Positions 1 to 13,039 of a DNA stretch of 13,772 nt are shown one piece after another (the stretch's first letter is position 1; each line of letters opens with the position of its first letter). The notes below the pieces were generated by a model, which did no database searches, was not told the DNA's origin, and saw only the letters and a list, made by a program, of their open reading frames with translations. Source of the DNA: Candidatus Eiseniibacteriota bacterium. Its GTDB lineage: Bacteria > Arandabacterota > Arandabacteria > JAGLYR01. The stretch covers positions 1-13,772 of the forward strand of contig JAGLYR010000079.1 in assembly GCA_023132135.1 (NCBI GenBank). Reading direction: 5' to 3'. The position numbers were made by a program, and so were the translations under genes.

Positions 1-1
1 C

Positions 2-40
2 GGCCCCTCGCGACGAAACCTGGTGAGAAACACAGGCTAA
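2..40 (+). CDS. C-terminal end of a possible upstream gene (partial)
   Basis: The window opens inside a reading frame that runs from position 2 to a TAA at 38-40 and ends in the residues LVRNTG. Only 12 codons are visible, so no function can be given. The reason to list it is that the last seven codons, including the stop, coincide with a copy of the dispersed repeat that also encodes the LVRNAG tail of the glucokinase at the other end of the window. The frame could be chance; the matching tail in a proven gene makes a real gene end somewhat more likely. Confidence 0.3.
   Translation, partial: GPSRRNLVRNTG
19..40 (+). repeat. Dispersed 22-bp motif, copy 1
   Basis: This copy reads CCTGGTGAGAAACACAGG followed by CTAA. 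It matches copy 3 (11966-11987, minus strand) at 18 of 22 positions. Read in frame it encodes LVRNTG and a TAA stop. The short arms CCTG and CAGG are complementary and flank a ten-base spacer. Confidence 0.65.
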
Positions 41-50
41 ATGGGACGAT

Positions 51-69
51 GCTCTGACCGGCTCAGAGC
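51..69. terminator. Perfect 7-bp hairpin after the upstream ORF, terminator-like
   Basis: GCTCTGA (51-57) and TCAGAGC (63-69) are perfect complements around the five-base loop CCGGC. The hairpin starts 11 bases after the TAA at 38-40, where a terminator of the upstream gene would sit. No T-run follows, so intrinsic termination is doubtful; it could also be a transcript-end protector. The rest of 41-163 shows nothing I can name apart from the two repeat copies. Confidence 0.3.
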
Positions 70-152
70 CGACACAGTGGCCATGCCGCGGGGCCCCCAA
101 TACCATGGACAACGCTTGCTGCCCGGATCACTTGTGGTCTCCGCTGACTCAG

Positions 153-174
153 GCTGGTGAGAAATGCAGGCTAG
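153..174 (+). repeat. Dispersed 22-bp motif, copy 2 (contains the start codon of the next gene)
   Basis: This copy reads GCTGGTGAGAAATGCAGG followed by CTAG. It matches copy 3 at 20 of 22 positions. The ATG at 164-166 inside the motif is the first possible start of the protease/barrel gene, because an in-frame TGA lies at 158-160, also inside the motif. The motif also supplies the only nearby purine-rich stretch (GGTGAG, 156-161). The LVRNAG-stop frame seen in copy 3 is preserved here (154-174) but has a stop just upstream at 145-147, so it is not coding in this copy. Confidence 0.75.
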
Positions 175-2950
175 GAGCCATTGGCTGTACGTGATCGGAG
201 TCACAGGGTTCCTGGCCTGTGCGGGGGCTGGAGACCTTGCGCACGCTCAGATCACGGCTTTCGGCAAGAACAAGGTCCAGTACGCTCACCTCGACTGGCA
301 GGTGATGGAGAGCGAGCACTTTCGTCTCCACTTCTACCCCGAGGAGCAGCAACTGGCGGAGATGGCCCTCGCTCTGGCGGAGTCCAGCTACACGTTTCTG
401 GCCGTTAAATTCCGCCACGAGATCCTCGAGCCCGTCCCCCTGGTGATCTACAGCGCCCACGCGTACTTCGAGCAGACGAACATCATTCCGCAGTTTCTGC
501 CGGAGGGCGTCGGTGGATTCACCGACTTCATGCGGTCCCGCGTCGCTCTGCCCTTCAGCGGCAGCCGCGCCGACTTCCGGAGAATTCTGCAGCATGAGTT
601 GGTCCACGCATTCCAGTTCTCCTACCTGGACCGGGTCTACCGGCTTCACCCAAAGGGCAGCTACCTGATTCCTCCTCTCTGGTTCATGGAGGGATTGGCG
701 GAGTACTGGTCCCGTTCGTGGGACTCGGAAGGCGACATGATCCTCGCCGATCTTCTCCTGAATGGGGAACTTCCCGATATCCCCGATCTCTGGCAGCTGG
801 GTTTGTCCTTCGCGTCGTACAAGGCAGGCCAGTCGCTGGTGGGCTTCATCGCCGAGAACTACGGCGAAAACAAACCAGCGCTTCTTCTGGAACTGATCTG
901 GACTGCCGGGACATTCGAGGATTTATTGGAGACGGTGTGCGGCGTTCCCGTTGAGGAGATCAACCGCAGGTGGAAGGACCAGCTCCGGCGGACGTACTAT
1001 CCCACTGTTCGCAGTCGTCAGGCACTGGAGGAGTTCTCGACACCGGTGACCGAGGGCTCGGTTGACCTCAAGCCTACGCACGTGCCGGGAGAAGAGGAGG
1101 CCTTTCTCTACTTGTCATACCACCTCGGATCCCCGGCGATCCTTGTCGGAGACATGGATAGTGGAGACACCCGCGTCTTTCTCAAGGCGGGGAGTTCCAG
1201 CCGGCTGGAATCCCTGCACATCTTCGGTAGCCGGGTTGATGTCTCGACAGATCGCCGGGTGGCCTTCGTGTCCAGAGCAGGGGGGCGTGACGCCCTGCAA
1301 ATCTACGATGTGGCGACCGGGAAGAGTGAGAGATGGCGGAAATTCCCGGGACTGATCTCCCTGAGTTCTCCGACTTGGTCGCCGGACGGGCGGCAGTTGA
1401 TTTTCTCCGCGCTGACAGAAAGCGGTTACTCGGATCTCTTCCTCTGGGACACGTCAACCGACGAGTTGAGGAGGCTGACCCGCGACCGGTTCCTGGATCA
1501 GGACCCGGACTGGTCTCCCGACGGGCGCTGGGTTGTGTTCAAGTCGGACCGGACCGCGTACGGTGAGCAGGGGCACACGAATCTGTTTCTACTCGATCTC
1601 CAGTCGGACCGGATTCTGTACCTCACCGCCGGGGCATGGACCGATCAGGCACCCCGCTGGGATCCCGAGGGAGCACGGGTCGCGTTTTCTTCTGATCGGC
1701 ACGGTCGGTACGACCTCTACGTGGTCGACCGGCAAGGAAACGGTTGCCGGCTGACGCGCGCTCAGACCAAGGCCACCGATCCCGAGTGGATACCGGGTGG
1801 GGGTTGGCTCTTCTCCGGGTTCGAGAAGAACCGGTTCCGCGTGTTCCGCCTGGACGACGCTCCGGATTCGGCCGAAACGGTGGCACTGAGTCTCCCGCGT
1901 TGTCGTCAGGCATGGGTGTGGTCGAAGGGTACGTTGCCTGATGGAGTAGAAATCCGGCCCTATCGTCCGGATTTCTCCCTTGAGATCGCTCAGGGAGGAG
2001 TAACATTCGGGCCCTACCAGACGGTTGGCCAGGGTTTTCAGGCAGCGCTGGGTGATCTTCTGGGCGATCGTCTCCTTTTCTTTCAGCTGACCAACGCGGC
2101 CCACACAGCTTCCGACTTCCTGTCCCGTTTCAACGTTGGCGTCGCCTACATGAACCTCTCGGGGAGGACCAACTGGGGCGTCAGCGCGTTCCACACATCG
2201 GGCGACTTCCTCAATGAAATCGGAACCCCGTTCTTCAAGAGCGAAAGCGGGGTCGGACTGCTCCTGAACTTCCCGTTCTCCCGGTTTGCTCGTCTGGAGT
2301 CCGGAGTCACAGCTATGTACGGTGAAAGGGAGAACCTTGGTCCGAGCCGGTCCAGCGGATTCATGGTGGCCAACTACCTGGCCTGGGTCTACGACACGTC
2401 GGTATGGATTCCCACCGGCCCCATGGACGGCTGGCGCTTACGCATGGGAGGCGGATTCACCATGAACACGCGGGTTGCGGAGGCCGAGAACGGTTTCGTG
2501 GAGGCAGACCTCCGGCGCTATCTTCGATTGTCGCTCCGGAGCGCTCTGGCCTTCCGGGTTGTTGGGCGGGCCGCGGTCGGACGCAACCCGGTGCGGTCGG
2601 TTCTGGGGGGTCCGCTTTCCCTTCGCGGGTACGATTGGCGTTCCATTTTCGGGACCCGGTCGCTGCTCCTCAGTGGAGAGATTCGGTTCCCCTTTGTAAA
2701 GAGGTTCGTGATGGATTTCCCAATCGGCAACCTGGAGTTCCCCGGAATCCAGGGTGTGGCCTTTGTGGATGCCGGGAATGCCTGGGAGAAAGACGAGGAT
2801 GTGCCGAGACCGGTGGGATCCGTGGGCGTAGGACTTCGGATGGCCCTGGGGATGTTCATGGTACTGCGCCTGGACTTTGCGCGGAGGACCGATTTTCGCG
2901 AGATTGAGGATCGGACCGACACGCAGTTCTTCGTAGGCTGGAACTACTAG
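164..2950 (+). CDS. Exported HExxH metalloprotease-like / TolB propeller / outer-membrane barrel protein
   Basis: A 928-residue protein that probably sits in the outer membrane. Residues 1-28 form a signal peptide ending in AHA. Residues about 40-280 are a peptidase-MA-like (gluzincin) domain with HELVH at 144-148 and FMEGLAEY at 174-181. E176 is the likely third zinc ligand by analogy with WLNEGFA of M1 peptidases, so the key residues look intact. Residues about 300-600 hold TolB-type propeller repeats, with WSPDGR at 405 and 450 and WDPEGA at 499. Residues about 640-928 resemble an Omp85/BamA surface-antigen barrel, with LRGY at 820-823 and an aromatic C-terminus (GWNY). The start is forced: an in-frame TGA lies at 158-160, and later GTG/CTG starts would lose the charged n-region. 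The Shine-Dalgarno is poor (GGTGAG only two bases from ATG). The next gene follows after 45 bases, so cotranscription is likely. Domain calls are firm; the substrate, and whether it cuts protein at all, is unknown. Confidence 0.88.
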   Translation: MQARSHWLYVIGVTGFLACAGAGDLAHAQITAFGKNKVQYAHLDWQVMESEHFRLHFYPEEQQLAEMALALAESSYTFLAVKFRHEILEPVPLVIYSAHAYFEQTNIIPQFLPEGVGGFTDFMRSRVALPFSGSRADFRRILQHELVHAFQFSYLDRVYRLHPKGSYLIPPLWFMEGLAEYWSRSWDSEGDMILADLLLNGELPDIPDLWQLGLSFASYKAGQSLVGFIAENYGENKPALLLELIWTAGTFEDLLETVCGVPVEEINRRWKDQLRRTYYPTVRSRQALEEFSTPVTEGSVDLKPTHVPGEEEAFLYLSYHLGSPAILVGDMDSGDTRVFLKAGSSSRLESLHIFGSRVDVSTDRRVAFVSRAGGRDALQIYDVATGKSERWRKFPGLISLSSPTWSPDGRQLIFSALTESGYSDLFLWDTSTDELRRLTRDRFLDQDPDWSPDGRWVVFKSDRTAYGEQGHTNLFLLDLQSDRILYLTAGAWTDQAPRWDPEGARVAFSSDRHGRYDLYVVDRQGNGCRLTRAQTKATDPEWIPGGGWLFSGFEKNRFRVFRLDDAPDSAETVALSLPRCRQAWVWSKGTLPDGVEIRPYRPDFSLEIAQGGVTFGPYQTVGQGFQAALGDLLGDRLLFFQLTNAAHTASDFLSRFNVGVAYMNLSGRTNWGVSAFHTSGDFLNEIGTPFFKSESGVGLLLNFPFSRFARLESGVTAMYGERENLGPSRSSGFMVANYLAWVYDTSVWIPTGPMDGWRLRMGGGFTMNTRVAEAENGFVEADLRRYLRLSLRSALAFRVVGRAAVGRNPVRSVLGGPLSLRGYDWRSIFGTRSLLLSGEIRFPFVKRFVMDFPIGNLEFPGIQGVAFVDAGNAWEKDEDVPRPVGSVGVGLRMALGMFMVLRLDFARRTDFREIEDRTDTQFFVGWNY

Positions 2951-2995
2951 CTCTGACGCGGAAAACGAGACACTCCGGGACTTGCGGGGCAATCC

Positions 2996-4039
2996 ATGAT
3001 ATGGAATCTCGCGATTGCAGTAGGGACCGCGGCGATCCTGGTTGCGAGTGCGCATCCGGGCAGCGCGGTGGAAATCCCCGCTGTTCAGTGGCACGAGGAT
3101 CTGGGGCGCGGGATTGTGGCGGCTCCCTGTGTGGACGGGGACATCTGCATTGTCCCCGTCGTGGATGGGAAGATCGTGGCCGTCGATATTGCGCAGGGTC
3201 GGATCCGGTGGAAGCGGAAGCCGGTGCGATCGCTCGTCATGTCCCCGGTTCTGGTGGGCGAAGGGATCTACGCGGCCGGTGCCCACGGGAGGGACGGGGT
3301 TTTCCGGATGGATCGTTCCTCGGGAAGAGTGCTGTGGCGGGTGAGTCGGGAAGGAGCGTTTTCCGGACTCTGTGCGGTCGGGAAAGCGGTGATCGCCGTC
3401 CAGACGGGTGGAGTGATCATTTGCCTGGAGCAGGAGACGGGAGACCTGCGATGGAGCCGGTCCGCGAGTTCGCTGATCCTGAGTTCGCCGGTCGCGCTGG
3501 AATCCCGTGTGTTGATTCCAACGATCGGAGACTCCCTCTATTGCTTCGCTGTCAAGGACGGTGGCATGGTCTGGGGAGTTGAGATCCGCGGGGGTGTTGC
3601 GGGGTCTCCGGTGGTGGTGGAAGACACCCTGTTTGTGGTCGGCCAGGCGGGCGGCATCTCTGCTCTGTCCGTGGAGGACGGGACGACTCTCTGGCATCGC
3701 GAGACAGGGGATCATTTCGTCGCGGGGCCTGTTTGTGGATCTCCCGGTCTGTTTCTTGTCAGTGTCGAGGGACGGATCCGGCGTCTTGACTCATCCGGAG
3801 GGGATACTGTCTGGTGCAGGAATCTGGGAACAGTTCTTCGAGCCCCACCGGCGTTGGCATCGGGGGAGGTCGTTGCAGGAACTGTGGCGGGGGATCTTGT
3901 GGCCCTGGACGAGGGCACGGGCGAGATCCGCTGGGAAATGTCCCTCCACGGAGGGATCGAGGCCCCGGTAGTGGAGGTGGGCGGGTGGGTGGTGGTGGGC
4001 ACGGACCGCGGCGATCTTTATGCAGTATCCGCACACTGA
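2996..4039 (+). CDS. Periplasmic BamB-like PQQ-type beta-propeller protein
   Basis: A 347-residue exported protein. Residues 1-24 are a signal peptide (hydrophobic NLAIAVGTAAILVASA, likely cut after GSA) with no lipobox cysteine. The rest is eight repeats of about 40 residues, each with a strand containing G-x-x-x-W (for example GRIRW, GRVLW, GDLRW, GGMVW, GTTLW, GDTVW, GEIRW) followed by a small-residue turn and a hydrophobic strand. This is the PQQ-repeat / BamB fold, and eight blades fits BamB. BamB is a scaffold of the outer-membrane assembly machine, but it is usually a lipoprotein of about 390 residues. Here the protein is shorter and apparently soluble, so a role as partner of the barrel protein just upstream is inference. 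It could instead be any PQQ-like propeller without cofactor. GGGG at 2986-2989 precedes the ATG by six bases. Confidence 0.8.
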   Translation: MIWNLAIAVGTAAILVASAHPGSAVEIPAVQWHEDLGRGIVAAPCVDGDICIVPVVDGKIVAVDIAQGRIRWKRKPVRSLVMSPVLVGEGIYAAGAHGRDGVFRMDRSSGRVLWRVSREGAFSGLCAVGKAVIAVQTGGVIICLEQETGDLRWSRSASSLILSSPVALESRVLIPTIGDSLYCFAVKDGGMVWGVEIRGGVAGSPVVVEDTLFVVGQAGGISALSVEDGTTLWHRETGDHFVAGPVCGSPGLFLVSVEGRIRRLDSSGGDTVWCRNLGTVLRAPPALASGEVVAGTVAGDLVALDEGTGEIRWEMSLHGGIEAPVVEVGGWVVVGTDRGDLYAVSAH

Positions 4040-4083
4040 CTGCGTGCATGGCACAAGTTGAAAACGGAAGGGTGAGGCGGCGC

Positions 4084-4659
4084 GTGAGCGGCATGACAGC
4101 AGGACAAACGGGCAAGCAGGCGATGTTGATTGTGTTGCTTCTCGGAGTTGTTGTTGGGGGGGGCGCGAGCGGCGCGTTTGGCTCTTCGCAGCCCGATCCA
4201 CCACCGGCGGCCGTCAAGTTGCCGGGGGAGAGGATATGGTTGCCGGCGGGAGCAGACACGTCCACCTTGACCCACCCCGGCTTCCTGCAGGCGACGGGGG
4301 CGCCGGAGGTCCCGGGCCGGGATGTCCTGGAAGTTCGTACCCGCCGGACCACGCTTCGGTGCGGATTGCTCCTGCTGGGCGCGGGGTCGGCCGCCTTGGG
4401 GGTCCACTACAAGGGTCGGGCCGACCAGGCGTACGATGCATACCTGCACACCGGGAACCTCCGCAAGATGAGAGATGCCTTTGGCGACGCCGAGCGGTAC
4501 GATCACTATGCCCTCGGATGCTGGGTGGTTGCGGAGGTGTCACTCATGGGTTTCCTGTATCTGCTGATGCGAACGCAAGAACCTGAGAGATGGAGTTTCC
4601 GGACCACGGTGGAAGAAGCCGATGGCCACTCCGGAGTTCAGGTGGAGGTGCGATTCTAG
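4084..4659 (+). CDS. Small exported or membrane protein with two C-terminal hydrophobic helices
   Basis: No named family is recognised with confidence. From the GTG at 4084 it has 191 residues. There is a signal peptide or first helix (AMLIVLLLGVVVGGGASGAF, about 13-32), a proline-rich linker, a helix at about 91-109, a charged segment with YDAYLHTGNLRKMRDAF and DAERYDHY, then a helix at about 144-162 and a short polar tail. Similar small proteins with a YD-x-Y / helix-YD pattern between two helices are common in FCB-group genomes beside exported propeller proteins (recollection, not checked). The frame stays open upstream into the previous gene, so the start is a choice. GGTGAGG at 4071-4077 lies six bases before GTG 4084, which I prefer. 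ATG 4093 and ATG 4048 are alternatives. The stop TAG overlaps the next start by one base (TAGTG), which indicates translational coupling. Confidence 0.65.
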   Translation: MSGMTAGQTGKQAMLIVLLLGVVVGGGASGAFGSSQPDPPPAAVKLPGERIWLPAGADTSTLTHPGFLQATGAPEVPGRDVLEVRTRRTTLRCGLLLLGAGSAALGVHYKGRADQAYDAYLHTGNLRKMRDAFGDAERYDHYALGCWVVAEVSLMGFLYLLMRTQEPERWSFRTTVEEADGHSGVQVEVRF

Positions 4660-5894
4660 TGCGGAGCCGGACGGCAACCATACTGGCGGCTCTTCTGGTC
4701 CTTGTGGGGGTGGATGGGGGCTGCGGCACCCGCTCCCGCGACAACCCCCTGGATCCCGACAATCCCGGGACAGGGGGCACGGCTCCCAATTTCAACGCCA
4801 TCGCCGGCGACGGGGAGGTCTCGGTGAACTGGTCGGCGATGGGAATCGATGATCTGGAACAGGTGGCCGTGATCCGGCGGGTGTGCGGGGGTGTGGCGGA
4901 GACCCTGAGCACCCAGCCGGGGCAGGCCTCCGGCTGGGTCGACACCTCTGCGGTCAACGGGATCACGTATGAGTATTGGGCGCGATACACCATACTGGAG
5001 GATCCCGCGGTTCACCTCTCCAATGTGGACCTGGCCACTCCGGGGGCTGGACGCGTCTGGGTAGTGGATGAGAGTTGGGGCGGGTTGCGGCGGGTGGCGC
5101 CTGATGCACGGGATCTGGTGTGGAAGTTGCCCTACAGCGGCTATTTCCGTTCCTTGGCCGTCGATCACAGGCGCGGCCGCGCGTGGTCGGTTGCCTGGTC
5201 CCGGAACGAGGTTGTGGGTGTGGATTCCCTGGGACACATTGTCGCGACCGTCCCTACGGAGTCCCCTCGGACGGTTGCGGTGTACGAGGAAGACGGAAGC
5301 ATCTGGGTGGCGGCGCAGTGGGGCGTGGGTTGCTTCACCTCCTCCGGAGATCTGCTGTTTGCGGACAGCACCGTGACGGAGCCCAAGGATATTGCCGTAG
5401 ATCCGGCGAGGGGAACCTGCTGGGTGGCGGAAGGAACGGGTAGCATCTGGATCAGACATGCCGATGGTACCACGGGGCGAGTGTTCAATTTCGACTATCC
5501 CTTCGCGATCTCCATTGCAGAGTCCGACGGAGGGGCGTGGGTTGTCGATGCCGGATCGCGGCAGGTGTACCGCCTGGCAGGCGGTGCGGGGGAGATTGTG
5601 GGGCAGGTGGCGGGGTTCGCTCAGCCCGTGGATGTCGCAGCGTCTCCATCCGGGGGAGCCTGGGTTGCGGACTGGGGCGCGGGGGCTGTGGTCTGGGTCA
5701 GTGACGTTGCGGAAAGAGGCCCAGCGATCGGGGGATTTGATCATCCCCGCGGAATCGCCGTGGGCGACTCGGGGAACACTGTGTGGGTCGTGGAGGCCCT
5801 CGCGGGCCGGGTTACGAAGGTGAGCACCGACGCCGATCTCCGGGTGAGCATCGGCGGCCTGGATTTCCCGAAAGATATTGCAATTGCCCGGTAG
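4659..5894 (+). CDS. Lipoprotein with FN3 domain and Vgb/NHL-like beta-propeller
   Basis: A 411-residue protein from the GTG at 4659, which overlaps the previous TAG by one base and has GGTGGAGG (4641-4648) ten bases upstream. This start gives a clean lipoprotein signal: RSR, a hydrophobic stretch, then VDGGC with C22 as the lipidation site. The lipobox is atypical (D at -3). After it comes RDNPLDPDNP, a motif I associate with surface or periplasmic lipoproteins of FCB-type bacteria. Residues about 43-130 look like a fibronectin type III domain (VSVNWSAM, YEYWARY). Residues about 131-411 are repeats of about 45 residues with strands such as RVWVVDE, SIWVAAQW, TCWVAEG, AWVVDAG, AWVADWG and TVWVVEA, resembling Vgb/NHL propellers. 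It probably binds protein or glycan at the envelope; no catalytic residues are evident. A start at 4590 would bury the lipobox and is rejected. Confidence 0.72.
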   Translation: MRSRTATILAALLVLVGVDGGCGTRSRDNPLDPDNPGTGGTAPNFNAIAGDGEVSVNWSAMGIDDLEQVAVIRRVCGGVAETLSTQPGQASGWVDTSAVNGITYEYWARYTILEDPAVHLSNVDLATPGAGRVWVVDESWGGLRRVAPDARDLVWKLPYSGYFRSLAVDHRRGRAWSVAWSRNEVVGVDSLGHIVATVPTESPRTVAVYEEDGSIWVAAQWGVGCFTSSGDLLFADSTVTEPKDIAVDPARGTCWVAEGTGSIWIRHADGTTGRVFNFDYPFAISIAESDGGAWVVDAGSRQVYRLAGGAGEIVGQVAGFAQPVDVAASPSGGAWVADWGAGAVVWVSDVAERGPAIGGFDHPRGIAVGDSGNTVWVVEALAGRVTKVSTDADLRVSIGGLDFPKDIAIAR

Positions 5895-5913
5895 CGCGGC
5901 AGCGCGTAGTTTG

Positions 5914-5942
5914 TTGACAAGCAAGGGGTGCTGCGCGATACT
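5914..5942 (+). promoter_or_regulatory. Sigma70-type promoter upstream of rpoZ
   Basis: A perfect -35 box TTGACA (5914-5919), a 17-base spacer and a -10 box GATACT (5937-5942; 4 of 6, with the key A at position 2 and T at position 6) make this the best promoter in the window. Transcription would start near 5949, giving a leader of about 117 nt before rpoZ. It probably drives the rpoZ-archease-rtcB-lon-CorC run of genes. In the leader I see no convincing riboswitch or long stem. A weak CGCG/CGCG hairpin at 5895-5906 followed by a short T-rich stretch could end the upstream cluster, but it is poor. Confidence 0.7.
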
Positions 5943-6065
5943 GGCTTGGCTCAGAGGCTCCGACCGGATTCGCATTCCTTTGGGCCGGATGAAGGGGTAT
6001 GCCTTTTCCCGCCCGGCAATGTGGAGTTCGGCTGTTCAGGCTTGCTACCCACAGAGTTAGGACGC

Positions 6066-6347
6066 ATGACACCGAAGAAACACAGGAAGGTAACCGAACC
6101 CAGGAAGCAGGAAGCGGCTTCTACTGAACCAGTCACCAGCGAGAGTGCTCCCTTGCGAAAGCTCCCCACCCTCTTTGACAACCTGTACGAGTTGGTTGTA
6201 GCTGCGGCCACCCGTGCGCGCCAGATCAATGCCGGCTCGCCCACTCCTCTGGAGGAGAAAGACGACCGACCACTCAACATTGCCCTCAGGGAAATCGCCG
6301 CCGGGAAGACCAAGTACAAGCTCGGGGACGACAGCGCGGAAGAGTAG
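6066..6347 (+). CDS. rpoZ: DNA-directed RNA polymerase omega subunit
   Basis: A 93-residue protein. Residues 40-85 match the omega/Rpb6 core: LYELVVAAATRARQIN, then DRPLNIALREIAAGKTKYK. Omega clamps the beta-prime C-terminus and aids assembly and stability of RNA polymerase. Residues 1-33 are a basic, probably disordered extension (KKHRK, PRKQE), longer than in many omegas. The frame is open back to 5928, but an ATG there would lie inside the predicted promoter. ATG 6066, with TTAGGA ending three bases before it, is therefore the start. Archease begins four bases after the stop. Omega genes are often next to gmk, spoT or coaBC; here the downstream neighbours are RNA-repair genes instead. Confidence 0.85.
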   Translation: MTPKKHRKVTEPRKQEAASTEPVTSESAPLRKLPTLFDNLYELVVAAATRARQINAGSPTPLEEKDDRPLNIALREIAAGKTKYKLGDDSAEE

Positions 6348-6351
6348 GCGG

Positions 6352-6765
6352 ATGGCATACAAGCTCCTGGATCACGGTGCCGATCTGGGTATCGAGATCC
6401 GGGCGCCTTCTCAGAAGGGGCTCTTTGTCGAAGGCGCGCGGGCGCTGTTTGACGTGATCGGGACTCTCGGGTCGACCAGGTCCCTTGTGGAAGAAGCCGT
6501 CGAGATCGAAGGTGAAGATGTCGAGGAGCTGCTGCGCGGGTGGCTGTCGGAAATCCTGTTTCGCTGTGTCGCGCGGAAACGGGTGTTCTGCGATTTCGAA
6601 ATCCTCGAGCTGAATCGGCACCGGCTCCGGGCTCTGGCCAGGGGAGAAGCTTTCGACGCGGCAAGGCACCCCTTTGAACGGGAAATCAAGGCTGTGACCT
6701 TCCACGGGCTGGAAGTGATCCGGGAAGCACACGGGTGGCGGGCCACGGTGATCTTTGATGTGTAG
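6352..6765 (+). CDS. Archease, activator of the RtcB RNA ligase
   Basis: A 137-residue protein of the archease family. The N-terminus YKLLDHGADLGIEI matches the usual DHTADIGIE block, which includes metal-ligand acidic residues; D7 and D11 are present and T is replaced by G in HGAD. The C-terminus EIKAVTFHGLEV followed by WRATVIFDV is also typical. Archease stimulates guanylylation and turnover of RtcB, and its position six bases before rtcB supports the assignment strongly. ATG 6352 lies four bases after the rpoZ stop, with GGAAGAG (6338-6344) seven bases upstream inside the rpoZ end, so translation is probably coupled. The open frame upstream (from 6214) overlaps rpoZ and is not used. Confidence 0.9.
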   Translation: MAYKLLDHGADLGIEIRAPSQKGLFVEGARALFDVIGTLGSTRSLVEEAVEIEGEDVEELLRGWLSEILFRCVARKRVFCDFEILELNRHRLRALARGEAFDAARHPFEREIKAVTFHGLEVIREAHGWRATVIFDV

Positions 6766-6771
6766 GGGTGG

Positions 6772-8223
6772 ATGATGAAGACGGGTGAGATCACTCTGGA
6801 AAAGATCGACGATTGCCGCTGGCGGATCCCGGCCACGGGCCAGATGCGGGTTCCCGGTCTCATTTTTGCCACCGAGGCGCTCCTCCCCAAGATCCAGCAA
6901 GACCAATCAGCCCGGCAGGTTGCCAACGTTGCCCACCTTCCCGGGATCCTCACGGCTTCCATGGCTATGCCCGACGTGCACTGGGGCTACGGTTTTCCGA
7001 TCGGCGGGGTTGCAGCGACATCCGTCGACGATGGAGTAATTTCACCCGGTGGCGTGGGCTACGACATCAATTGCGGTTGCCGTTTGATGAGGACGAACCT
7101 CAGGAGTCGCGATGTTGAATCCAGGATGGCGGACCTGGTGGAATCCCTGTTCCGGAATATCCCCTGTGGGGTCGGTGGCGCGGGAACCATCCACCTCTCT
7201 GAGAAGAAGCAGAAACAGGTTCTGACCTTGGGCGCCCGCTGGGCGGTGGAAAACGGGTTTGGGGAATCAAGCGATCTGGAACGAACGGAGAACAACGGGT
7301 GCATGCACGACGCGGATCCGGACGCCGTGAGTCCCCGGGCTTTGGAACGCGGACGGGACCAGCTGGGGACCCTGGGTTCAGGAAATCACTTCGTCGAAGT
7401 GCAGGTGGTGGAAGAAATCTACGACGCCCAGGCTGCCCGGGCCTTCGGTCTGGAAACGGACCAGGTCACCGTGATGATCCACTCCGGTTCCCGCGGGCTG
7501 GGATACCAGGTCTGCGATGACTACCTCAAGGTCATGAACCGGGCCGTGAGGAAATACGGGATTGTTCTCCCCGATCGGCAGCTGGCCTGCGCACCCTTCC
7601 AGTCTGAGGAAGGGCAAAGGTACATGATGGCAATGTCGTGCGCGGCAAACTATGCTTGGGCAAACCGGCAGTGTCTGATGCACTGGACCCGGAAAACCTT
7701 GGAGAAAGTGCTGAGGATAGGACCGAGAGACCTGGGTATGCATCTCGTCTACGACGTGTGTCACAACATCGCCAAGGTGGAAGAACACGTCGCGGACGGT
7801 CGTCGTCAGAAGGTCTGCGTCCACCGCAAGGGAGCGACCCGCGCTTTCCCGGCGGGCCACCCGGACATACCGTGGGTGTACAGAAAAGTGGGACAGCCGG
7901 TTTTCATCCCCGGGGACATGGGTACCAGCTCTCACGTTCTGGTGGGCACGGAAGGTGCGATGGCGGAGACCTTTGGGAGCACGTGCCATGGAGCAGGCCG
8001 GGTCAAGTCCCGGGGAGAGGCGAGCCGGACCTTCCGCGCGGAGGATCTTCTGAAATCCCTTGCCGAGCGGGGTGTCTGTGTCATGGCCAAGCGCAGGAAG
8101 ACTCTCGTAGAAGAAGCTCCGGATGCATACAAGGATGTCGATCAAGTCGTCGATGTGGTAGCTCGTGCGGGAATTTGCCGGAAAGTAGCAAAGCTGAGAC
8201 CACTCGGCGTGATCAAGGGATAG
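6772..8223 (+). CDS. rtcB: RNA-splicing ligase RtcB (3'-phosphate/5'-OH RNA ligase)
   Basis: A 483-residue RtcB, the full family length. It joins RNA 2',3'-cyclic phosphate or 3'-phosphate ends to 5'-hydroxyl ends using GTP and Mn2+. All catalytic blocks are visible: MPDVHWGYG (66-74), GYDINCGCR (96-104) with metal-ligand C101, GSGNHFVEV (202-210) with N205/H206, IHSGSRGLG (236-244) with H237, DVCHNIAKVE (328-337) with H331, HRKGATRAF (351-359), and STCHGAGR (403-410) with H406, the residue that takes GMP by comparison with H404 of Pyrococcus RtcB. No intein interrupts it. The start is ATG 6772; ATG 6775 follows at once and would serve as well. GGGGTGG immediately upstream is the ribosome site. 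No rtcA or rtcR is nearby. The enzyme should be active, with archease beside it. Confidence 0.97.
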   Translation: MMKTGEITLEKIDDCRWRIPATGQMRVPGLIFATEALLPKIQQDQSARQVANVAHLPGILTASMAMPDVHWGYGFPIGGVAATSVDDGVISPGGVGYDINCGCRLMRTNLRSRDVESRMADLVESLFRNIPCGVGGAGTIHLSEKKQKQVLTLGARWAVENGFGESSDLERTENNGCMHDADPDAVSPRALERGRDQLGTLGSGNHFVEVQVVEEIYDAQAARAFGLETDQVTVMIHSGSRGLGYQVCDDYLKVMNRAVRKYGIVLPDRQLACAPFQSEEGQRYMMAMSCAANYAWANRQCLMHWTRKTLEKVLRIGPRDLGMHLVYDVCHNIAKVEEHVADGRRQKVCVHRKGATRAFPAGHPDIPWVYRKVGQPVFIPGDMGTSSHVLVGTEGAMAETFGSTCHGAGRVKSRGEASRTFRAEDLLKSLAERGVCVMAKRRKTLVEEAPDAYKDVDQVVDVVARAGICRKVAKLRPLGVIKG

Positions 8224-8277
8224 TGCGAGTCTGCCGATCAGGTGAAGAAGACCGCCCCGGTGAACGAAGGATAGCGA

Positions 8278-10683
8278 ATGGACAGTGACTCATCCGGCGA
8301 GGATTTCGAGCAAGTCCTGGCTCAGCCCGAAGAGATCAGCGTCCCCGGCGAGATTGGAATCATTCCTCTCCGGGATGCGGTGATCTTTCCTCATCTGGTT
8401 GCTCCGCTTGTCATCGGACGGCCCAAGTCCCTGGCCGTGGTGGATGAAGCCATTGCCGGCGACCGTATTGTCGGTCTGGTAGTTCAGCGCAACGAGAAGG
8501 AAGATCCCTCCGTCGACGACCTCTACCCCGTGGGAACGGCGGTTCTCATCCTCAAGATGCTGAGGTTCCCCGATGACACCACGCGCCTGCTGGTCCAGGG
8601 AGTCGCGCGTGTCCGGGTCTCGGAGTTCCTCCAGACCGAACCCTACTTCAAGGCCCGCGTGATCCCCGTGACCTCCAAACGGGAGCCGACCGTTAAAGTC
8701 AGGGCGCTGACGAGAAGCGCGACCGGGTTGTTCAACAAGATCGTTTCCCTGACGCCTCATCTCCCGGAAGAACTGGCTGTGGCAGTCATGAACCTGGGAG
8801 ATCCTTCCCGCACGGCCGACCTGATCGCATCCTCGATCAACCTGAGCGTTCATGAGAGGCAGGGCATTCTCGATCTGGCTGATGTGAAAAAGCGGCTGGA
8901 GAAGGTGTACGAGTACCTTGGCCGGGAGGAGCAAGTCCTGGAACTGGGCAGTGAGATCCAGGCGCAGGTCAAGGAGGAGATGGACAAGTCGCAACGCGAG
9001 TACTACCTCCGCCAGCAGCTGAAGGCCATCCGGAAGGAGCTTGGCGAAGAGGACGAGATGGAAGCGGAGGTGCGGGAGATCCGCTCCAGAATCGAGGCTG
9101 TCGGGATGCCCGAGGAGGCCAGGAAACAGGCGGAGACCGATCTGGAGCGCCTCTCCAGGATGGTTCCCATGGCGGCCGAGTACTCTGTGGTCCGGACGTA
9201 CCTGGACTGGTTGATGGAATTGCCCTGGTCCAAGACCACGGAGGACCGGTTGGACGTTCGCCATGCCCAGAGGATCCTGGATCACGACCACTACGACCTG
9301 GAGCAGGTGAAAGAACGGATTCTCGAGTACCTGGCGGTCCGGCAGCTGAAGGAAGACCAGCGCGGCTCGGTGCTCTGTTTCGTTGGACCGCCCGGCGTGG
9401 GCAAGACATCCCTGGGCCGTTCGATTGCACGGGCCCTGGGTCGGAAATTCATAGGAGTCTCTCTAGGCGGAATCCGGGACGAGGCCGAAATCCGCGGACA
9501 CCGCCGGACCTACGTTGGTGCACTCCCGGGTCGGATCATCCAGGGAATCCGCAGCGCGGGGACAAGCAACCCGCTGTTCATGCTGGATGAGATTGACAAG
9601 ATGGGGTTTGACATCCGGGGAGACCCCACGGCAGCGCTCCTGGAAGTCTTGGATATGGAGCAGAACCACCGCTTCAGCGACCACTACCTGGAGGTCCCTT
9701 TTGACCTGTCCCGCGTGATCTTCATCGCGACAGCCAATGCACTGGACACTGTGCCGCCCGCCCTTCGGGATCGGATGGAAATCATGGAGCTTCCCGGGTA
9801 CGCGGAAGAGGAGAAACTGAAGATTGCCAGGAGGTTCCTCGTGAAGCGGGAGCTGCGAGCGCACGGACTCAAGCCCAAACAGCTCCAATTCACGGACGCC
9901 GCGCTCGGGGCTGCCATCGGTGAGTACACGCGGGAAGCAGGCGTTCGTGCTCTGGAACGTCGGATCGCAACAGTCTGCCGGAAGGTGGCCAGGCAAGTGG
10001 TCGGGGGGAAGAAGAGACCTGTCCGCGTTGGAGTCAAAAACCTCTCCAAGTACCTGGGTCGCTCCAGATATTTCCGCGAGGTGGCCAGCCACAGGAATAT
10101 CTCGGGAGTGGCGGTTGCGCTGGCCTGGACTGAGGCCGGCGGGGAGATCATGTTCATTGAGTCCAATATCGTACGGGGCGATGGCCGCGTCCAGCTCACG
10201 GGTCAGCTGGGAGAGGTGATGAGGGAGTCCGCTCAGGCGGCCCTGACCTTCATCCGGTCCCGGGCGGAGGATCTGAATATCGACGATACGGTTCTGCAAC
10301 AGTGCGATCTGCACATTCATGTGCCGGCGGGAGCCATTGCGAAGGACGGGCCTTCGGCCGGAATTACGATTGCCGCAAGCGTGGCGTCTCTTCTTACGAA
10401 CACACCCATCGATCCCGAGACGGCCATGACGGGGGAAATCACTCTCAAGGGGAGAGTGTTGCCCGTCGGCGGCGTGAGGGAAAAAGTTCTGGGGGCTCGG
10501 CGGGCGGGAATCAGGAGAATCATCCTTCCGGAGCACAACCGGGAAGATATCGAGGAAATCCCCCGGGAGTACCGGAAGGGAATGACGTTCGTCTTTGCCG
10601 ATTCCGTGGCGGACGCCCTCAGTGCAGTGCTCGGCCCCAAAGGGAAGCGCGGCAAACGCAAGGTCAAACGAAAGCAACGGTAG
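8278..10683 (+). CDS. lon: ATP-dependent protease Lon (LonA type)
   Basis: An 801-residue soluble LonA protease that degrades misfolded and regulatory proteins in the cytoplasm. Residues about 20-210 are the substrate-binding LON domain (IGIIPLRDAVIFPHLVAPL). About 215-320 is a coiled-coil helical region (EEMDKSQREYYLRQQLKAI). The AAA+ module follows, with Walker A GPPGVGKT at 370-377 and Walker B MLDEID with D437/E438. The peptidase domain has catalytic S693 in DGPSAG and K736 in REKVLGA; the 43-residue Ser-Lys spacing is the same as in E. coli Lon (S679/K722). The protein ends in a strongly basic tail (KGKRGKRKVKRKQR). AAGGA (8267-8271) is six bases before ATG. It is 54 bases after rtcB and 17 before the next gene, with no terminator seen, so it may share the rpoZ transcript. 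I see no HrcA/CIRCE or heat-shock promoter in the short upstream gap. Confidence 0.97.
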   Translation: MDSDSSGEDFEQVLAQPEEISVPGEIGIIPLRDAVIFPHLVAPLVIGRPKSLAVVDEAIAGDRIVGLVVQRNEKEDPSVDDLYPVGTAVLILKMLRFPDDTTRLLVQGVARVRVSEFLQTEPYFKARVIPVTSKREPTVKVRALTRSATGLFNKIVSLTPHLPEELAVAVMNLGDPSRTADLIASSINLSVHERQGILDLADVKKRLEKVYEYLGREEQVLELGSEIQAQVKEEMDKSQREYYLRQQLKAIRKELGEEDEMEAEVREIRSRIEAVGMPEEARKQAETDLERLSRMVPMAAEYSVVRTYLDWLMELPWSKTTEDRLDVRHAQRILDHDHYDLEQVKERILEYLAVRQLKEDQRGSVLCFVGPPGVGKTSLGRSIARALGRKFIGVSLGGIRDEAEIRGHRRTYVGALPGRIIQGIRSAGTSNPLFMLDEIDKMGFDIRGDPTAALLEVLDMEQNHRFSDHYLEVPFDLSRVIFIATANALDTVPPALRDRMEIMELPGYAEEEKLKIARRFLVKRELRAHGLKPKQLQFTDAALGAAIGEYTREAGVRALERRIATVCRKVARQVVGGKKRPVRVGVKNLSKYLGRSRYFREVASHRNISGVAVALAWTEAGGEIMFIESNIVRGDGRVQLTGQLGEVMRESAQAALTFIRSRAEDLNIDDTVLQQCDLHIHVPAGAIAKDGPSAGITIAASVASLLTNTPIDPETAMTGEITLKGRVLPVGGVREKVLGARRAGIRRIILPEHNREDIEEIPREYRKGMTFVFADSVADALSAVLGPKGKRGKRKVKRKQR

Positions 10684-10700
10684 GGGGTGGTACGGTAAAA

Positions 10701-11969
10701 ATGGACATCGTTGCCCTGGTAGTGCTTCTCCTGCTCAGCGGGTTCTTCTCGGGCTCTGAAGCGGCTTTCCTGTCGCTGGGCCGGCTCCAGATCCGCAATC
10801 GAGTTGAACAGGGGGAGAAAAAGGCTGTCCGTATTGCCCGGATGCTCGAGAACCTCGAGCGGTTTCTGGGGACTATCCTGGTGGGGAATACCCTGGTCAA
10901 CGTTGCCCTCTCGGCCATCGCCACCGGGATCGCCATTCGCCATTTCGGAACGACTCAGGGAATCACCATTGCCACCGTTGCAGTTACCATTGTTCTTCTT
11001 GTTGTCGGCGAGCTCACTCCCAAGACCCTCGCAACCGGCAAGCCTCGCGGTTTCGCCTACGCGGTCATCTACCCTCTGGAAGGTGTCACGGTCATCCTGC
11101 GGCCTTTCGTGGCCGTTGTGCGAGTTCTGGCCTGGCCGTTCATGCGGGCTGTGGGAGCCAGCGGGTCCGGGGTAGGTCCTCTGGTTACGGAAGAGGACCT
11201 CAAGATGATGTTCCACGTGGGGCAGGAGGAAGGAGTTCTGGAAGAGCACGAGAAGCGGATGCTCCGGTCCGTGATCGAATTTGAGGACACGACGGTGAAA
11301 GAGGTTATGGTCCCGCGCCTGGATATTGTCGGATTGCCGCAGGATGCGAGCTTCGACCAGGTTGTGGATCTGGCAGTGTCGAAGGGCTATTCCCGCATGC
11401 CCGTGTACGGCGAAAACCTGGATCATATCGTCGGAATCGCCCATGTGAAGGATCTTCTTACGCTGGTCAAGGACAGGCGAATCATCCGGCTACCCGACAT
11501 GGTCAGGAAGCCCTACTTTGTCCCCGAAACGAAGAAGATAGGCCGTCTGCTGAGGGAATTCCAGCTCGAGAAAACGCACATGGCCATCGTGGTGGACGAG
11601 TTTGGAGCGGTGGCGGGTCTGGTGACCCTGGAGGACCTCGTCGAGGAAATCGTCGGCGAAATCCAGGACGAGTACGACGAAGAGGAAAAGGCGGTTGTTT
11701 CCCTCCCGGATGGGACCATGCGGGTTCAGGCGCGAATGGACCTGGACGATTTCAATGATTTATTCGGTGTAACACTGCCGGAAGGGGACTACGACACAAT
11801 TGGGGGATTCGTAATTAGTTTGTGGGGTCGACTGCCGACAGTCGGCGAGGAGATTTCCTACGAGAACTTCAATTTCAGTGCTGCGGAGGTGGATGGCCCT
11901 CGCCTTCTGAAAATTCTGGTCACGCGGTATGGGCGAGAGGATGAGGAGGAATCTCAAGAGGACACCTAG
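10701..11969 (+). CDS. CNNM/CBS/CorC-type membrane protein (hemolysin-related, putative Mg2+/Co2+ transport)
   Basis: A 422-residue inner-membrane protein. Residues 1-185 are the CNNM (DUF21) domain, with the hallmark SGFFSGSEAAFLSL near the N-terminus, hydrophobic helices at about 1-17, 58-80, 86-105 and 118-150, and GELTPK after the third helix. A CBS pair follows (about 199-325; VKEVMVPR at 199-206, HMAIVVDEFGAVAGLVTLEDL later). The C-terminal CorC/HlyC domain lies at about 335-415 (DFNDLFG, GDYDTIGGF). Relatives export Mg2+ or regulate its transport; some were named haemolysins. The start is ATG 10701 behind GGGGGTGG (10683-10690); the frame extends upstream only inside lon. The stop TAG is the palindrome CTAG at 11966-11969, which also holds the stop of the convergent glucokinase gene, so there is no room for a terminator between them. 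Confidence 0.92.
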   Translation: MDIVALVVLLLLSGFFSGSEAAFLSLGRLQIRNRVEQGEKKAVRIARMLENLERFLGTILVGNTLVNVALSAIATGIAIRHFGTTQGITIATVAVTIVLLVVGELTPKTLATGKPRGFAYAVIYPLEGVTVILRPFVAVVRVLAWPFMRAVGASGSGVGPLVTEEDLKMMFHVGQEEGVLEEHEKRMLRSVIEFEDTTVKEVMVPRLDIVGLPQDASFDQVVDLAVSKGYSRMPVYGENLDHIVGIAHVKDLLTLVKDRRIIRLPDMVRKPYFVPETKKIGRLLREFQLEKTHMAIVVDEFGAVAGLVTLEDLVEEIVGEIQDEYDEEEKAVVSLPDGTMRVQARMDLDDFNDLFGVTLPEGDYDTIGGFVISLWGRLPTVGEEISYENFNFSAAEVDGPRLLKILVTRYGREDEEESQEDT

Positions 11970-11987
11970 CCAGCATTTCTCACCAGG
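11966..11987 (-). repeat. Dispersed 22-bp motif, copy 3 (end of glucokinase gene)
   Basis: On the minus strand this copy reads CCTGGTGAGAAATGCTGG followed by CTAG. It encodes the glucokinase C-terminus LVRNAG and the stop. Its terminal CTAG is a palindrome, so the plus-strand TAG of the CorC-like gene also comes from it. It matches copy 2 at 20 of 22 positions although the two lie almost 12 kb apart. Confidence 0.75.
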
Positions 11988-12913
11988 CTCGCCACTCCTA
12001 TGATACCCGCATCGTCTCCGAGCTCCGCACGAGTGATCTTGATTTTCCCGCGCGCCGCCGGGAACACCTGCTCATCCACGAATTTCCTGACCCTGGGAAG
12101 GAACAGGTCGACAGACTCCGAAACACCGCCGCCGATGGCCACCACTTCGGGATCGACGACATGGCAGAGGCTCACGATTCCAAGGCCCAGGAAGTGTGCC
12201 ATACGAGCCACAACCCGGCAGGCCAACTCATCGCTTCCACCGGCAGCTTCGAAGACCTCGCGAGCGGTCAAGGACTCCCTGCCCGCAAGAACACTGGGTT
12301 CTCCGGATTCCAGGGCCTCTTTCGCCATGCGGACCACCGCCGTGGCCGAGGCCCACTGCTCCAGACACCCGCGATTCCCGCACCCGCAGGGTGGGCCGTC
12401 TGCCGCCAGGATAATGTGGCCGAGCTCCCCGCCCACGCCGTGCGCGCCCCGCAGGATTTTCCCATCCAGAACGATTCCCCCTCCGACACCGGTTCCGAGG
12501 CCCAGGAAGATCAGACTGTGAGCGTCCCGGCCTGAGCCCTGCCGGAACTCACCGTAGGCTGCGGCGTTCGCGTCATTCTCAAGATGGACCCCGATTCCGA
12601 GAGTCTCCTCGACGAGACGTTTCAGGGGGAAGTTCGTGAAATCGGGGAAGTTGGGCGCCGAAGTGATGATTCCCCCTGTGACATCAAGGGGGCCCGGGAC
12701 TGCAATGCCGACCCCGGCCAGGTTCGAAACGCTGGTGCCTGCCTCATTGCACAGGGCTCGGACCAGAGCAACGAGGCGGTCCACCACAGCGTATCCACCT
12801 TCTTCCCGATGGGTCGGGCGCTTGAGTCTGTTTCGAACCTCGAGATTCTCGGAGAAAAGGGCGCCCCGGACGTTGGTACCACCCAGATCAACGCCGATCA
12901 CGTGGCGAGACAC
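11966..12913 (-). CDS. ROK-family glucokinase (sugar kinase)
   Basis: A 315-residue ROK kinase, the expected size. It probably phosphorylates glucose or a related hexose or amino sugar with ATP. Visible motifs are the phosphate-binding DLGGTNVR (9-16), AVPGPLD (71-77), LENDANAAAYGE with catalytic-base D114, GTGVGGG (141-147), GGELGH (E163, H166), the zinc site CGCGNRGCLE (C176, C178, C183, with H166) and E185, and IGGGVSES in the C-terminal half. The start is GTG at 12913-12911, with GGAGG (+strand 12919-12923) five bases upstream. The longer open frame to 13009 adds residues unlike the family and encoded partly by a dispersed repeat. The last six residues (LVRNAG) and stop are exactly a copy of the 22-bp repeat. 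Substrate within ROK (glucose, fructose, N-acetylmannosamine) cannot be settled by eye; E-x-x-G-H with the zinc motif favours glucokinase. Confidence 0.92.
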   Translation of the reverse strand: MSRHVIGVDLGGTNVRGALFSENLEVRNRLKRPTHREEGGYAVVDRLVALVRALCNEAGTSVSNLAGVGIAVPGPLDVTGGIITSAPNFPDFTNFPLKRLVEETLGIGVHLENDANAAAYGEFRQGSGRDAHSLIFLGLGTGVGGGIVLDGKILRGAHGVGGELGHIILAADGPPCGCGNRGCLEQWASATAVVRMAKEALESGEPSVLAGRESLTAREVFEAAGGSDELACRVVARMAHFLGLGIVSLCHVVDPEVVAIGGGVSESVDLFLPRVRKFVDEQVFPAARGKIKITRAELGDDAGIIGVASLVRNAG

Positions 12914-12978: not shown

Positions 12979-13039
12979 CGCCGGTGGGAAAAGACGAAAC
13001 TGACCTCAATGTGTTGGACTGAGCAGTGCTCGAATCCGC

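Follow-up and report, generated by a model that had tools for sequence, protein, structure and literature searches.

Introduction

Bacterial MITEs are short, non-coding elements with inverted ends that occur in many copies, may be nested and have their ends in common with an insertion sequence (PMC10969869); the 2024 review of prokaryotic MITEs from which this description is taken makes no mention of IS1380. The IS1380 family (PF13701) includes IS1380A, ISEcp1 and ISPme1, and its elements from Pseudomonas, Stutzerimonas and Bradyrhizobium have the terminal repeat CCCGCATTTCTCACA and a flanking CTAG. One-ended mobilisation has been documented for two members of the family, ISPme1 and ISEcp1 (PMC9330008; PMC3281130), a 5-bp duplication is given for IS1247 (PMC3281130), and the IS1380 transposases form the outgroup for the piggyBac superfamily of eukaryotes (PMC10813416). 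REP/BIME sequences, in turn, are extragenic palindromes linked to a RAYT (Y1) transposase.

The elements described here resemble bacterial MITEs in each of the above respects, whereas their link between CTAG and stop codons is particular to this case. They have nearly the same terminal repeat and flanking CTAG as these three IS1380-family elements, but are only 40–355 bp long and contain no transposase gene, and their ends match IS1380 instead of REP/BIME. Both MITEs and IS1380 are already known, and these elements are of a known kind. A paper on IS1380-derived MITEs was not found in the open literature, which is weak evidence as subscription papers lay mostly outside the search, nor did the literature yield a paper for the exact 14-mer of the motif.

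Results

Repeat copies in the window and in the genome

The window, that is, the whole stretch of 13 772 nt that was analysed, contains the three dispersed copies that the first-pass annotation had placed there: matches to CTGGTGAGAAATGCNGGCTA at ≤ 3 mismatches were found at 20–39 (+, two mismatches), 154–173 (+, none) and 11967–11986 (−, none), with a chance expectation of 0.00, as none of 200 dinucleotide-preserving shuffles gave any match at this threshold. The features concerned are listed below.

1..40, + strand: right end of a family-1 MITE (subterminal region 1–19, terminal repeat 20–36, flank CTAA 37–40), holding copy 1
40..174, + strand: right part of a family-2 element (terminal repeat 154–170, flank CTAG 171–174)
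154..174, + strand: copy 2, terminal inverted repeat CTGGTGAGAAATGCAGG plus CTAG, holding an ATG at 164
164..2950, + strand: gene for a 928-aa protein with Peptidase_MA-like, PD40 and Omp85 domains, its called start inside copy 2
10701..11969, + strand: CNNM/CBS/CorC_HlyC-type gene, its TAG stop (11967–11969) within the CTAG beside copy 3
11966..11986, − strand: copy 3, a solitary terminal repeat (repeat 11970–11986, CTAG 11966–11969)
11966..12901, − strand: ROK-family kinase gene (Pfam ROK, E 5.3e-72; the gene may begin further upstream, at 13009)

Scanning the 3.4-Mb genome at ≤ 3 mismatches with CTGGTGAGAAATGCNGGC, the pattern put forward in the first-pass annotation, returned 263 copies (133 forward and 130 reverse), compared with 8 (3 + 5) for the reversed pattern in the same genome. 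At ≤ 1 mismatch there were 165 copies and none for the controls, whilst the 20-mer at the same threshold was present 146 times. The 17-base core at ≤ 3 mismatches gave 94 copies, against one for the control, in a 982-kb sample composed of contigs C1–C100 (≤ 20 kb of each) and the window. The copies in the genome thus number well over 100, rather than only the three initially seen.

Element structure and target sites

Among the matches listed, 74 of 103 neighbouring copies stood in −/+ order, with 13 in +/−, 8 in −/− and 8 in +/+ order. The paired repeats span 40–355 bp, and these lengths recur within each genome in MAGs of several phyla; the elements are therefore short, without a transposase gene and, with 263 ends in this genome, present in many copies. 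Such pairing, together with the recurring lengths, constitutes the anatomy of a MITE and gives the layout CTAG-CCYGCATTTCTCACCAG ... CTGGTGAGAAATGCRGG-CTAG, where the flank is CTAG or another YTAR site. Judged by this anatomy, the motif is the 17-bp terminal inverted repeat of MITEs, reading CCYGCATTTCTCACCAG inwards from the left flank and CTGGTGAGAAATGCRGG when taken outward.

Of 75 pairs for which the flanks were compared, 58 had a TA at matching positions in the two flanks and 40 had identical 4-bp flanks (36 CTAG, 2 CTAA and 2 TTAA), and many of the remaining pairs differed at the outermost base alone (TTAG/CTAG, CTAG/CTAA). Next to the repeat, the left flank almost invariably had G and the right flank C, which would fit a duplicated TA with the element itself carrying the G...C; the CTAA and TTAA pairs would instead fit a 4-bp duplication. 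A target site duplication is thus present with a length of 2 or 4 bp, the counter-point being that it is sometimes not a perfect 4 bp. The piggyBac elements insert at TTAA and have ends that start with CCC, which in sequence resembles the YTAR-CCC junction here, but the main site in our case is CTAG as opposed to TTAA. In locus L092 a 166-bp element interrupts a 246-bp element, and as many intact 246-bp copies exist, these provide the uninterrupted counterpart of the nested site. Additionally, a tiny element at L199:7779–7826, consisting of two repeats around a 13-bp hairpin, lies within the TTAA that forms the middle of the palindrome AGGAGTGATTAATCACTCCT.

Nesting is also seen at the 5′ end of the window. 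Positions 1–39 agree with complete elements at L225, L197 and L175 (94.9 % over 39 nt); this family-1 MITE is 181 bp long and complete elsewhere in the genome, whilst the window copy is cut by the start of the contig. Positions 40–174 gave BLAST matches of 86–93 % in L149, L151, L203, L156 and L177, and because L149 shows the same nested family-1/family-2 order as the window, it is probable that family 1 inserted into family 2 and that the composite was then copied. A stretch similar to AATGGGACTATGCTCTGACC, located at 40–75 in the window, follows the family-1 ends at L225, L230, L149, L220 and L168, after which the sequences diverge; this may point to yet another dispersed repeat behind these ends. 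The outward repeat GGTGAGAAATG comprises an SD-like stretch with an ATG, from which the 928-aa gene is called (MQARSHWL...), and the transposon end may hence supply the start of this gene. A general function of the repeat as a translation start was considered and rejected, as a gene was called from the ATG in 2 of the 64 copies bearing it (in the window and in L176).

Complete elements fold into a full-length stem (z of −10.1, −9.8 and −12.0 in three genomes), as is to be expected from their inverted ends and internal symmetry. The role in RNA processing that had been proposed for the motif gains no direct support from these long stems, as a search for Rfam matches to the elements found none.

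Relationship to IS1380-family elements

One strong match to an IS1380 transposase is present in the genome (PF13701, E 1.3e-155), and downstream of this gene lies its right end, GTGGTGAGAAATGCGGGCTA, in which 16 of 17 bases match the repeat. The 5′ side of this single gene and the left end have been lost, the lost side adjoining what looks like an IS3-type element, and the assembly contains no intact autonomous copy, which may be missing owing to its fragmentation. In 8-kb loci, no transposase was evident next to unpaired repeats. Searching plasmids by tblastn returned 673 records, several of them annotated as 'IS1380 family transposase', including IS1380A at 51 % identity. In three IS1380 elements, from P. 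putida (L273), Stutzerimonas (L278) and Bradyrhizobium (L276), each end lies next to a CTAG and reads CCCGCATTTCTCACA with at most one base changed; 14–15 of the 17 bases agree with the repeat at either end in L273 and L278, and 13 and 15 do so in L276. The elements thus have terminal inverted repeats in common with autonomous members of the IS1380 family. Furthermore, remnants of IS1380 genes with similar ends were found in MITE-bearing MAGs (L251 and L261); that at L261:142–853 has kept both ends and only a short N-terminal part of a partly deleted transposase gene, and is possibly a MITE being formed.

As such, we consider it very probable that an IS1380-family transposase is what moves these MITEs and that the motif is their terminal inverted repeat; supplied in trans, the enzyme would carry them into CTAG and other YTAR sites.

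Distribution in other genomes

At ≤ 1 mismatch, two of 40 comparison genomes (seven from the same class plus more distant ones) contained a single copy of the motif each and the rest had none, and the 20-mer was present in none of the seven other genomes of the phylum at this threshold. The amplification of the motif is particular to the lineage of this genome, and the burst of insertion would have been limited to it. Nevertheless, the exact 21-mer was found, among the matches listed and with one genome per species, in MAGs of Gammaproteobacteria, Deltaproteobacteria, Acidobacteria, Planctomycetia, Nitrospira, Verrucomicrobiia, Myxococcales and others, whilst no exact match to the motif was found in viral contigs. 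IS1380-type MITEs would thus explain a conspicuous repeat in MAGs of many phyla.

Position relative to genes

Outside the repeats, CTAG was observed 434 times in the sample, compared with 3639 expected from base composition, an approximately eightfold depletion. TAG was the commonest stop, ending 314 of the 609 called genes that do not touch a repeat (TGA, 253; TAA, 42); it is unusual for TAG to be the most frequent stop codon. With genes called by a home-made hexamer model (87 % coding), so that the gene-end numbers are approximate, 21 of 36 CTAG-flanked repeats (58 %) lay ≤ 3 bp from a stop, compared with 90 of 434 other CTAGs (21 %; p = 3e-6) and 0.6 % of random positions. No CTAG-flanked repeat (0/36) was located inside a gene, as opposed to 157 of the 434 other CTAGs (p = 3e-7). 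When in-gene sites were left out, the excess near stops shrank to 21/36 versus 88/277 (p = 0.003), all of these p values being optimistic as both ends of one element were counted separately.

The gene-end bias is real: the repeats lie nearer to gene ends than chance would place them, and far more often so than either random positions or other CTAG sites. From the shrinkage of the excess once in-gene sites are omitted, CTAG targeting and the loss of in-gene insertions explain most of it, and the residual excess may come from genes reading into the repeat or from selection. What the first-pass annotation had offered as a short mobile repeat settling at gene edges is in keeping with these findings, in that IS1380-type MITEs, which have inserted at CTAG/YTAR, carry the repeat as their inverted ends. 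With CTAG depleted and surviving mostly outside genes and at TAG stops, the targets would be found there, and target choice together with the loss of in-gene insertions would leave elements beside stops, often with the gene's own TAG within the target. Such targeting of gene ends is simple, as its target is rare, mostly extragenic and contains a stop codon on both strands; a CTAG-targeting transposon can occupy gene ends with little harm, sometimes rewriting the last codons of a protein.

Copy 3 illustrates this. Its CTAG doubles as the stop for the ROK gene and the convergent CNNM/CorC gene, and the last codons of the former (LVRNAG) and its TAG stop come from the repeat. ROK relatives align to residues 305–307 of 311, beyond which they have short variable tails, and the ROK family domain is therefore complete. 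A potential LVRN[AT]G-stop frame had been ascribed to all three copies; it is used by copy 3, but not by copies 1 and 2, neither of which forms the 3′ end of a gene, the former being the end of an element lying in another and the latter overlapping the start called for the first gene.

A partner repeat for copy 3 was looked for and not found. In a first count of the 94 sampled copies, 53 were solitary and 21 belonged to pairs, whilst contig ends truncated the other 20. That about half are solitary counts against the MITE reading, in which decay must account for them. Several solitary ends match a known element for 45–60 bp before diverging from it, and such ends, including copy 3, would fit both deletion remnants and products of one-ended transposition; at copy 3, the gene would now read into the repeat and stop at LVRNAG*. 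Moreover, for repeats ≤ 260 bp from a contig end in the sample, the interior of the element pointed toward the end in 23 and away from it in 4, as expected if the assembly breaks in MITEs, and the repeat also seems to break assemblies of MAGs.

The gene-end excess that persists in part without in-gene sites (p = 0.003) is a further point against the MITE reading. It would suit a situation in which the repeats originated as transposon ends, but many of the near-stop copies are now selected as a host 3′-end signal that ends transcription, protects the mRNA or stops translation. That in 24 of 55 solitary copies the CTAG coincides with the end of a gene points in the same direction, as does the strong folding of complete elements; however, inverted ends alone yield stem folds, and double-counted ends and genes reading into the repeat inflate the excess. 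Given also that the motif is absent from relatives, that the repeat is present at only a minority of genes and that no Rfam match was found, we regard selection as a host signal as unlikely. A signal dispersed over the chromosome, for instance for DNA uptake or for binding by a chromosome-organising protein, is hardly credible. Such roles had been suggested at the outset, and the high copy number, near-equal on the two strands, would suit them, but related genomes do not share the motif in large numbers (no copy in the seven relatives from the phylum, and at most one in any relative searched), and its copies match IS1380 ends, flank a duplicated target core and constitute, in unrelated phyla, the paired ends of discrete elements with a single pair order and fixed spacings.

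Central hairpin

Returning to the MITEs themselves, many elements across phyla contain a central hairpin, CTCRACGTAG...CTACGCCTYCG (control, a crude shuffle), as in Nitrospira (L086), Holophagae (L051), Gammaproteobacteria (L098) and this genome, whilst several are without it; a stem running over the full length is likewise common to elements of different phyla. None of the autonomous IS1380 elements examined showed the core, and a relaxed search for it was uninformative, as there were too many matches elsewhere. It is conceivable, albeit doubtful, that the MITEs are one widespread non-autonomous lineage, and not separate local decays of IS1380, in which case the core hairpin, possibly functional, would have travelled across phyla along with the ends.

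Elsewhere in the window, at 6352–8223, an archease gene is located immediately 5′ of an RtcB RNA ligase gene, the two being a usual functional pair.
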